64,000 nt of DNA from Burkholderiaceae bacterium (GTDB lineage Bacteria; Pseudomonadota; Gammaproteobacteria; Burkholderiales; Burkholderiaceae_C): positions 1,550,001-1,614,000 of the forward strand of contig JAHCKM010000002.1 of the NCBI GenBank assembly GCA_026125795.1, read 5' to 3'. The notes under the pieces were generated by a model. That model was given only the letters and a program-made list of their open reading frames with translations. It did no database searches and was not told the origin of the DNA. Both the position numbers and the translations under genes were made by a program. Shown one piece after another: positions 19,596 to 22,202 of the stretch (position 1 is the stretch's first letter; each line of letters starts with the position of its first letter).

Positions 19596-21014
19596 ATGTC
19601 AGCGGTCTTCCAGCAATCCTCCGGCCAGGTCGATGACGATGTGGCGCGCCTGCGCGTGCCGCCGCATTCGATCGAGGCCGAACAGAGCGTGCTCGGTGGA
19701 TTGCTGCTCGACAACCTGGCATGGGATCGTGTCGCCGACCTGGTGACCGAAAGCGATTTCTATCGCTACGAGCACAAGCAGATCTATGCAGCCATCTCGG
19801 CGCTGGTGGGCGCCGGCAAGCCGGCCGACGTGGTGACGGTGCACGAGCACCTCCAGAGCCTCGGTCGTGCCGACGATTGCGGCGGACAGGTGTACCTCAA
19901 CGCGCTCGCGCAGAGCGTGCCGAGCGCGGCCAACATCCGCCGTTACGCCGAGATCGTGCGCGAGCGCGCGGTGCTCGTGAAACTGATCCGGGCCAGCGAC
20001 GAGATCGCGACGCAGGCGTTCAATCCGCAGGGCCGGCCGGTCACGCAGATCCTCGACGAGGCCGAGACGCGCATCTTCCAGATCGGCGAAGAAGGTTCGC
20101 GCAACAAGCAGGGCTTCATCGGCATCGACAAGCTGGTGGTCGAGCTGATCGACCGCGTGACCGAGCTGCACGAGAACGGGGCCGAAGAGGTGACCGGCGT
20201 GCGCACCGGCTTCTATGACCTCGACCGCTACACCGCGGGGCTGCAGAAGGGCGACCTGATCGTGCTGGCGGCGCGGCCCAGCATGGGCAAGACCGCCCTC
20301 GCGTTGAACATCGCCGAGCACGTGGCGGTGCGTGAAGAGCTGCCGGTGCTGGTGTTCTCGATGGAAATGGGCGCCGCGCAGCTGGCGCTGCGCATGGTGG
20401 GTTCGCTCGGGCGCATCGACCAGCAGCACCTGCGCACCGGCGCGCTGCGCGACGACGAGTGGACGCGCCTGACCGAGGCCGTGGATCAGCTCGGCAAGGT
20501 GAGCCTCTATATCGACGAGACCGCGGCGCTCAATCCGGCCGAGCTGCGTGCGCGGGCGCGGCGCATGGCGCGCCAGTTCGGCGGCACGCTCGGGCTGATC
20601 GTCGTCGACTACCTGCAGCTGATGAGCGGCTCGGTCGGCAGCGAGGAGAACCGCGCCACCGAACTGGGCGAGATCTCCCGCGGGCTGAAGGCGCTGGCCA
20701 AGGAACTGCAGTGCCCGGTGATCGCGCTGTCGCAGCTCAACCGCAGCGTGGAGACGCGCAACGACAAACGCCCGCTGATGAGCGACCTGCGCGAATCGGG
20801 CGCGATCGAGCAGGATGCCGACGTCATCATGTTCATCTACCGCGACGACTACTACAACAAGCTGGACGGCCCCACGCCGAGCAAGGAGCCGGGCGTGGCC
20901 GAAGTGATCATCGGCAAGCAGCGCAACGGCCCGGTGGGCACGGTCAAGCTCACCTTCCTGAAGCCGCTGACGCGCTTTGACAACCTGGCCGCCGGCGAAG
21001 CCTCCGAGTACTAG
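19596..21014 (+). CDS. dnaB: Replicative DNA helicase DnaB
   Basis: Ring helicase of the replication fork that also binds DnaG primase (present at 34566-36320). The 472 residues have the N-terminal helical domain (about 20-125), the linker, and the RecA-like core with Walker A in AARPSMGKTALALN (near 225-235), Walker B around LGLIVVDYLQLM, and KQRNGPVGTVKL at the end. No intein. TATCAT at 19584-19589 lies only 6 bases before the ATG and no Shine-Dalgarno is seen, so its message may be leaderless. The gap upstream contains CTCCACAG and TGTGCACAG, weakly DnaA-box-like. Confidence 0.97.
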   Translation: MSAVFQQSSGQVDDDVARLRVPPHSIEAEQSVLGGLLLDNLAWDRVADLVTESDFYRYEHKQIYAAISALVGAGKPADVVTVHEHLQSLGRADDCGGQVYLNALAQSVPSAANIRRYAEIVRERAVLVKLIRASDEIATQAFNPQGRPVTQILDEAETRIFQIGEEGSRNKQGFIGIDKLVVELIDRVTELHENGAEEVTGVRTGFYDLDRYTAGLQKGDLIVLAARPSMGKTALALNIAEHVAVREELPVLVFSMEMGAAQLALRMVGSLGRIDQQHLRTGALRDDEWTRLTEAVDQLGKVSLYIDETAALNPAELRARARRMARQFGGTLGLIVVDYLQLMSGSVGSEENRATELGEISRGLKALAKELQCPVIALSQLNRSVETRNDKRPLMSDLRESGAIEQDADVIMFIYRDDYYNKLDGPTPSKEPGVAEVIIGKQRNGPVGTVKLTFLKPLTRFDNLAAGEASEY

Positions 21015-21033
21015 AGCCCGCTCTGCCTACCGC

Positions 21034-21069
21034 TTGACGGCGGTTTGGATACTGTATAGATTTACAGTA
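21034..21069 (+). promoter_or_regulatory. Promoter with LexA (SOS) box overlapping the start codon
   Basis: TACTGTATAGATTTACAGTA at 21050-21069 has perfect 7-base inverted arms (TACTGTA/TACAGTA) and the CTGT-N8-ACAG core of proteobacterial LexA boxes. TTGACG at 21034-21039 and TAGATT at 21057-21062, 17 bases apart, make a promoter whose -10 lies inside the box. The last base of the box is the A of the ATG. Confidence 0.85.
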
Positions 21070-22202
21070 TGCCAAGCGCGATCAGCCGCTCCAGGCCTGC
21101 CCAGCCACCAACGGTGGTTCCGCTGACGTTCGCGCCCATCAAGGGGCGCGGCACGAACTGGTCGATCCAGCATCGCTTCGCGAGCGAGCAGCGAGAATCG
21201 TTCGACGATGGCTGGGGCGCGCTCGACCAAGCGGCGAGCGAGCAACCGCTGCCTCCCGGCACCGAGGTGATCCAGGAGCACGTCAAGTCCATCCTCACCG
21301 GCAACGATTCGCCGGACATCGGCTTCGATCTGTCGATCAACCCGTACCGCGGCTGCGAGCACGGCTGCGTCTACTGCTTTGCGCGGCCCACGCACAGCTA
21401 TCTCAACATGTCGCCGGGCCTCGACTTCGAGACGCGCATCGTCGCCAAGGTCAATGCGGCGGAGCGCCTGCGCGAGACCTTTGCCAAGCCAAGCTACACG
21501 CCGCTGGCGCTCAACGTCGGCTCGGCCACAGACGCCTATCAGCCGGTCGAGCGGCGTCTCGGCATCACGCGATCGATCATCGAGGTGTTGAGCGAGTGCC
21601 GGCACGCGTTCTCGCTGTTCACCAAGTCCTCAGGAGTCGAACGCGATCTCGACTTGATCGCGCCCATGGCGGCCAAAGGGCTGGTGGCCATCTACGTCTC
21701 GGTGACCACGCTCGATCCGCAGCTCGCGCGCACGATGGAGCCGCGTGCGGCTGCGCCATACCGGCGCCTGAAGACGATCGAGACTCTGGCCAAGGCGGGA
21801 GTGCCAGTGGGCGTGAGCCTCTCGCCGATGATTCCGTTTCTCAACCTGCACGACATGGAGCGCATCCTCGTCGCCGCACGCGATGCCGGCGCCAGCGCGG
21901 CGTCGAGCATCGTGCTCAGGTTGCCTTGGGAAGTGAGCCCGCTGTTCCAGCAGTGGCTCAAGCAACACGTGCCCGAGCGGGCCGAGCGCATCATGGCGCG
22001 TGTGCGCGAGATGCGCGGCGGCAAGAACTACGACTCCACGTTCGGGACCCGCATGACGGGCACCGGCGTCTGGGCCGAGATGATCCGCCAGCGCTTCGAC
22101 AAGGCCAGCGCCAAGCTCGGCTTCAACCGCATGCGCTTCGAGCTCGACCTCTCGCAGTTCCGCCGACCGTCGGCACAACCGGGACAGGCATCGCTGTTCT
22201 AG
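21069..22202 (+). CDS. Radical SAM protein, PA0069/SplB-like family, probably SOS-regulated
   Basis: The 377 residues carry the 4Fe-4S cluster motif C96-x3-C100-x2-C103 in a GCEHGCVYC context, followed by a TIM-barrel radical SAM core. The family is related to spore photoproduct lyase-type radical SAM enzymes and often annotated PA0069-like; its reaction is not established. ATG 21069 lies in a LexA box and has no Shine-Dalgarno; transcription from the overlapping promoter would begin near the ATG itself. A GTG at 21114 is the next possible start, just before the conserved PIKGRGTNW. A role in DNA damage response is inferred from the LexA box. It stands alone between dnaB and the convergent dnaJ. 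Confidence 0.88.
   Translation: MPSAISRSRPAQPPTVVPLTFAPIKGRGTNWSIQHRFASEQRESFDDGWGALDQAASEQPLPPGTEVIQEHVKSILTGNDSPDIGFDLSINPYRGCEHGCVYCFARPTHSYLNMSPGLDFETRIVAKVNAAERLRETFAKPSYTPLALNVGSATDAYQPVERRLGITRSIIEVLSECRHAFSLFTKSSGVERDLDLIAPMAAKGLVAIYVSVTTLDPQLARTMEPRAAAPYRRLKTIETLAKAGVPVGVSLSPMIPFLNLHDMERILVAARDAGASAASSIVLRLPWEVSPLFQQWLKQHVPERAERIMARVREMRGGKNYDSTFGTRMTGTGVWAEMIRQRFDKASAKLGFNRMRFELDLSQFRRPSAQPGQASLF

Follow-up and report, generated by a model that had tools for sequence, protein, structure and literature searches.

Does a radical SAM gene whose promoter and start codon lie under a LexA-type palindrome belong to the SOS response of its host, and what kind of enzyme does it encode? The question is raised by a locus from a Burkholderiaceae genome, in a stretch of 64,000 nucleotides (contig JAHCKM010000002.1, positions 1,550,001 to 1,614,000) that was analysed as a whole and is called the window here. 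The original prediction, made from the letters of this stretch, had proposed a LexA box, induction by DNA damage and a leaderless message. The features of the locus are collected in Table 1.

Table 1. Features of the radical SAM locus (positions are those of the window).
Feature	Position	Strand	Basis and remarks
dnaB, co-directional upstream neighbour, possible source of read-through	19596..21014	+	ORF; named by eye from sequence and gene order
-35 hexamer TTGACG	21034..21039	+	promoter scan
Predicted hairpin in read-through RNA	21044..21076	+	21044-21056 pairs with 21063-21076; A and U of AUG paired, G bulged
Putative LexA operator TACTGTATAGATTTACAGTA	21050..21069	+	core CTGT-N8-ACAG at 21052-21067; near-perfect; kept upstream of orthologues
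-10 hexamer TAGATT	21057..21062	+	within the operator; 17-nt spacer to the -35 hexamer
Predicted transcription start on the A of the ATG, leaderless	21069..21069	+	from the -10 position and the conserved start-in-operator geometry
PA0069-family radical SAM protein, 377 aa	21069..22202	+	NF033668, 458.8 bits vs. cut-off 360; Pfam PF04055
Cx3Cx2C cysteines C96, C100, C103 (codons 96-103)	21354..21377	+	invariant in 38/38 aligned sequences including that of the window

The near-perfect LexA box that had been described, with 7-base arms and a CTGT-N8-ACAG core, is indeed present at 21050-21069; its arms are perfect over 7 bp (TACTGTA/TACAGTA). The coordinates also bear out the promoter layout that had been claimed, with TAGATT inside the box, TTGACG 17 bases off, and the last base of the box being the A of the ATG. 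This is the single sigma-70-like -35/-10 pair found in 20950-21200 by the promoter scan (shuffle mean 0.1), and a scan of the same stretch detected no terminator. With a start seven bases past the -10 hexamer, transcription would begin on the first base of the radical SAM gene's ATG. A GTG at codon 16 is an alternative start candidate of this gene.

Allowing up to three mismatches, the 20-mer TACTGTATAGATTTACAGTA has one site in the 64 kb and none in 100 shuffles. The bare core could suggest that the box arose by chance as a palindrome or serves another regulator, since 0.56 such cores are expected in 64 kb and the genome shows no enrichment (17 sites vs. 21 for the reversed pattern). When the extended form TACTGT-N8-ACAGTA is searched with two mismatches allowed, noise dominates (10 genome sites vs. 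36 for the reversed pattern). The exact extended form occurs at two sites in the 6.57 Mb genome, with about 0.04 expected from base composition: one is the operator of the radical SAM gene and the other lies 135 bases before a match to NF033429 (imuA; contig 2, 1377009-1377617). The genome has a lexA gene that scores above the curated cut-off, and motifs of the CTGT-N8-ACAG type precede lexA and other SOS genes, with one-mismatch cores before lexA, recA, and a dnaE2-like gene (dnaE2 named by eye) and a LexA-type box in the exact extended form before imuA.

The box before imuA occupies bases 1501-1520 of locus L001 in the window's genome (contig 2, 1376855-1376874). A possible start of imuA, an ATG at base 11, lies inside its operator too.

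Conservation was assessed in the family to which the window's genome belongs, where 108 of 150 genomes have a match to the gene. Upstream regions were obtained for 107 loci from 105 of the 108 genomes, the fragment matches in G031, G101, and G136 having been left out, and 106 of these were usable (L130 was dropped with 3 nt upstream; L067 was kept with 107 nt). The exact core is found in 79 of these 106 family loci, a core with one mismatch in 16, with two in seven, and with three in four, so that 95 carry a core within one mismatch. The exact-core background for this set is given by 30 family loci that were read whole (about 4 kb each): the exact core lies upstream in 28, and one further exact core lies elsewhere. 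Shuffles belong to a wider draw only, a subset of all matches that comprises 70 loci outside the class, eight of the same order, 31 of the same class, and one extra locus of the same family (G318). In this draw, exact cores appear in 0-0.8% and one-mismatch CTGT cores in 5-10% of shuffled 300-nt stretches, and the 16 one-mismatch family loci therefore weigh less.

The exact core is also present at G318, at six of the eight other same-order loci, and at 21 of the 31 other same-class loci. Outside the class it is replaced: none of the 70 loci has an exact CTGT core, whereas 62 have an exact GTTC-N7-GTTC (below 1% in shuffles), which is the LexA motif of alphaproteobacteria. We infer that these 70 loci are alphaproteobacterial. 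Three motifs were also scored in 80 named loci, with beta-labelled loci left untallied; among contigs labelled alphaproteobacterial, eight of nine carry an exact GTTC-N7-GTTC, and the ninth (L174, Rhodospirillales) has neither motif. The gene's LexA motif follows that of its lineage, and this is the strongest argument for its membership in the SOS regulon. The original prediction had made its case depend on the box being present before the orthologues of close relatives, and this is what the 79 of 106 family loci show, with the wider groups in agreement. A chance palindrome is ruled out by the 0 of 100 shuffles together with the box being kept before orthologues and replaced by a second LexA motif outside the class. 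These last two points also speak against the site of another regulator, as does the matching motif before lexA, recA, and imuA, and we regard this whole line of explanation as extremely improbable.

The exceptions count against SOS control: a box within one mismatch is missing from 11 of the 106 family loci, and the exact core is absent from 10 of the 31 same-class and two of the eight same-order loci. The ten same-class misses include all five loci of family f15 and both of family f24, and the LexA of these two families may read another motif. Eight named contigs of Xanthomonadaceae type (Lysobacter, Lysobacteraceae, Luteimonas, Rhodanobacter, Vulcaniibacterium) likewise have no exact match to either motif.

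The f15 loci L345, L353, L354, L368, and L371 and the f24 loci L360 and L365 show no exact match to either of the two LexA motifs tested. L034 and L136, which lie on contigs of equal length, retain only half of the operator (GACTGTATATATTTAAGGGG), either as a lost site or through an assembly fault; the protein of L136 has about 75% identity to that of the window.

LexA binding and induction by damage are standard SOS biology, on which the following reading is based. In undamaged cells, LexA would cover the -10 hexamer and the start codon. Upon DNA damage, activated RecA would promote self-cleavage of LexA, and derepressed transcription would start on, or about one base away from, the A of the ATG. 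The resulting leaderless mRNA would then be translated, and damaged DNA, or else some other nucleic acid linked to damage, would be the most likely target of the enzyme's radical SAM chemistry. SOS control of the radical SAM gene, as originally proposed, is strongly supported at the level of sequence: the operator, the promoter geometry, the conserved box before orthologues, and the change of operator type beyond the class all point to it. A place of the enzyme in the DNA-damage response is very probable. We consider it highly likely that a LexA operator represses the promoter of this PA0069-family gene, with a leaderless mRNA predicted upon SOS induction and a damage-linked nucleic acid as the most likely substrate of the product.

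How general is the overlap of operator and start codon? Among the 106 family loci, an in-frame ATG is located at base 20 of the operator in 37 (ATG20 loci; one of these also has an ATG at base 11), at base 21 in seven (ATG21), at base 11 in four, and elsewhere in 47, and the remaining 11 have no core within one mismatch. In 17 of the 37 ATG20 loci, no later ATG, GTG, or TTG precedes the conserved domain. A tree was computed from 102 rows and 132 columns, a number of columns so small that the deeper forks are unsure; one starred clade (95/92) of 40 rows, which includes the window, holds 35 ATG20 loci, three ATG21 loci, one other, and one without a box. None of the operators within one mismatch before 30 lexA, 28 imuA, and 25 recA genes has an ATG in frame at either of bases 20 and 21, and none of the 27 boxed radical SAM loci outside the family has an ATG at base 20, their starts lying mostly at 31-52. 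A -35/-10 pair that would place the transcription start on the A of the ATG or one base past it occurs in 15 of the 37 ATG20 loci vs. 2.3 expected; at the threshold used, 22 of the 37 show no -35/-10 pair. The predicted leaderless message is thus supported by promoter geometry and by conservation in one clade, and we read the start in the operator as a derived, probably leaderless SOS promoter. An SOS promoter of this design, which one clade has kept, would be very compact.

A second peculiarity concerns the gene upstream. Among the 30 best-scoring family loci, a co-directional dnaB homologue is the immediate upstream neighbour in 15; every one of these is an ATG20 locus, compared with four of the other 15. 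Of 80 named loci, 61 could be classified; dnaB lies within 300 bases in nine, and six of these are ATG20 loci. The association fits a need to silence read-through from dnaB and fits equally well an arrangement inherited within one clade.

Several operators extend as inverted repeats beyond the 20-mer, and the sequence of the extension differs from genome to genome. Arm lengths, including the CTGT/ACAG core, reach 24 bp at L107 and 14-19 bp at L361, L336, L341, L369, and L072. The operators of the imuA loci L251 and L253 are likewise extended as genome-specific inverted repeats. In a flank-swap test, each operator was folded with its own left flank and with the left flanks of other loci. The native flank ranked at or below 0.05 in 23 of 95 family loci (4.8 expected), in eight of 28 further loci (27 outside the family plus G318 within it), and in eight of 28 imuA loci, but in only two of 30 lexA and two of 25 recA loci. 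Dinucleotide-shuffled flanks gave a similar picture (p at or below 0.05 in 20/95 family, 8/28 imuA, 2/30 lexA, and 1/25 recA loci), and the z values for an excess of symmetric Watson-Crick pairs are 4.8 for the family, 5.3 for the further loci, 2.0 for imuA, -2.6 for lexA, and -1.4 for recA. A control shifted by one base shows a small excess (z up to 2.2), and the rows behind all of these statistics are related, which makes the probabilities rough. An excess of self-complementary operator flanks over expectation is seen for the radical SAM gene and imuA and is lacking for lexA and recA.

One explanation is that the operator acts twice. As DNA it would bind LexA; in read-through RNA, its palindrome and flanks would fold over the start codon or ribosome site, and only the mRNA born under SOS induction, which starts within the palindrome and so lacks the 5′ arm (here being leaderless), would be translated. 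A dual role of this kind would concern the radical SAM gene and imuA, two genes that may have to be kept tightly silent, whereas lexA and recA would do without it. In its favour are the better folding of native left flanks in both kinds of control, the Watson-Crick excess with z values of 4.8 and 5.3, the long arms at some loci (24 bp at L107), and the ATG20 geometry, with the start codon beginning in the 3′ arm of the palindrome, of every one of the 15 family loci that dnaB directly precedes. In the window, the A and U of the AUG are paired in the predicted read-through RNA (Table 1), and the AUG is free in the fold of the predicted leaderless mRNA. The hairpin of the window is itself not significantly stronger than its controls, however (p 0.39; ranks 0.13 and 0.30), and the one-base-shifted control reaches a z of 2.2. 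The relatedness of the rows, the restriction of the dnaB association to one clade, and the selection of the 30 loci as the best-scoring ones also count against this dual role. G-U pairs show no excess over A-C mismatches (168 and 160 observed; 181 and 178 expected), so that a role in RNA has no advantage over symmetry of the DNA itself or mutational correction of palindromes. We consider the dual role rather unlikely.

The mutational alternative, in which template switching corrects near-palindromes to perfect inverted repeats without any function, is a possible explanation that we rate somewhat short of an even chance. It agrees with a Watson-Crick excess that is unaccompanied by a G-U excess, and with the lexA and recA boxes, which are more often imperfect (exact in 8/30 and 5/30, compared with 21/30 for imuA) and show no extension. 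Yet it predicts nothing about start codons, and the presence of extensions at the radical SAM gene and imuA and their absence at lexA and recA fit selection as well. The radical SAM promoter offers a clean place to test both leaderless translation and the silencing of read-through.

The enzyme had been called PA0069/SplB-like, and a role in DNA lesion repair or RNA modification had been suggested as possible, a suggestion that stays conjectural. The first half of the label stands: the match to NF033668 (PA0069 family radical SAM protein) covers residues 25-377 and the whole profile, and at 458.8 bits it exceeds the curated cut-off of 360. The window protein is alike across the profile, with no difference found; in the NCBI listing, NF033668 is a hypothetical equivalog without a function. 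It also scores 204.2 bits against the Rv2578c family radical SAM protein (NF038135) over residues 71-307, which is below that model's cut-off of 430. The second half of the label is weaker than it sounds, as the scores against the two spore photoproduct lyase models are 14.5 bits for TIGR04070 (cut-off 400) and 12.2 bits for TIGR03886 (cut-off 437.55). By these curated models, the gene product is not a spore photoproduct lyase.

Might the name splB nevertheless be right, and the protein an ordinary spore photoproduct lyase? The broad superfamily and the Cx3Cx2C motif, which TIGR04070 lyases share with the window protein, would agree with this, and an SOS gene described as a homologue of spore photoproduct lyase has been named splB (PMC3323433). 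The two low scores argue against it. A profile comparison with the lyase by hhalign aligns residues 184-297 of the window protein and no more. The hydrogen donor of spore photoproduct lyase is the cysteine of its FEASC motif; the PA0069 family has GxxTDxYQP instead, with S, T, V, I, A, or M and never C at the corresponding position (38/38 sequences, aligned by eye on TD, outside the hhalign alignment). In contrast, the lyase-like proteins L424-L426, which score 249-278 bits against TIGR04070 and thus stay below its cut-off, carry FEASCYTDP or FEGSCYADP. The upstream regions differ as well, since the lyase-family and lyase-like genes of another genus have no GTTC-N7-GTTC in the 300 nt upstream (eight loci). 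An ordinary lyase is, in our view, quite improbable.

These eight loci (L416-L420 and L424-L426) all come from one genus of the phylum; for comparison, the PA0069-family gene has GTTC-N7-GTTC at 62 of 70 loci outside the class.

When the PA0069-family profile was compared with the PDB, the best match was SkfB (E 0.00065), followed by NifB and others above 0.1, and no spore photoproduct lyase was among the matches. PPR-protein matches from a single-sequence PDB search were discarded as weak repeat matches. A literature search found no paper on "PA0069 family radical SAM", one on PA0069, which deals with chromosome segregation, and none on Rv2578c and DNA damage. PA0069 reportedly appears in a Pseudomonas LexA study, to which the argument gives no weight.

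SOS control of radical SAM genes has been described in several other systems. SplB (COG1533) radical SAM genes are reported as SOS-regulated or SOS-associated and are termed DNA repair enzymes or photolyases (PMC8565304, for Bacteroidetes; PMC3765255). They belong to other phyla or operon contexts and are likened to the present gene by description, not by sequence. RNA-seq and ChIP-seq are reported to identify the radical SAM gene vnz_31145 of Streptomyces venezuelae as a target of LexA (PMC9380542); this is the kind of target predicted here, though with a different SOS box, and the likeness is again one of description and not of family.

The closest precedent is a 2012 study (PMC3323433), whose account covers genomes with multiple chromosomes. 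SOS control of splB in alpha- and betaproteobacteria was already predicted there; the gene was read as serving photolesion repair. As in our data, this lyase homologue has two types of LexA site, one in alpha- and another in betaproteobacteria. Of 299 genomes from the phylum, five, which share a genus, have a TIGR03886 match over the cut-off, three more have weak matches, and those of the window's class have none, whereas the PA0069 family is found in 150 of the 299. On these counts, and by the shared pattern of LexA sites, the splB of that study is very probably the PA0069-family gene. The passages of that study considered here mention neither the PA0069 family nor operators that contain a start codon or extend as longer palindromes. 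The present analysis adds to this the assignment to a family that curated models separate from the lyases, a start codon inside the operator across one clade, and a symmetry of the flanks that the radical SAM gene shares with imuA. A widespread SOS gene that goes by the name splB falls outside the spore photoproduct lyase family by curated models, and its substrate thereby becomes a testable question.
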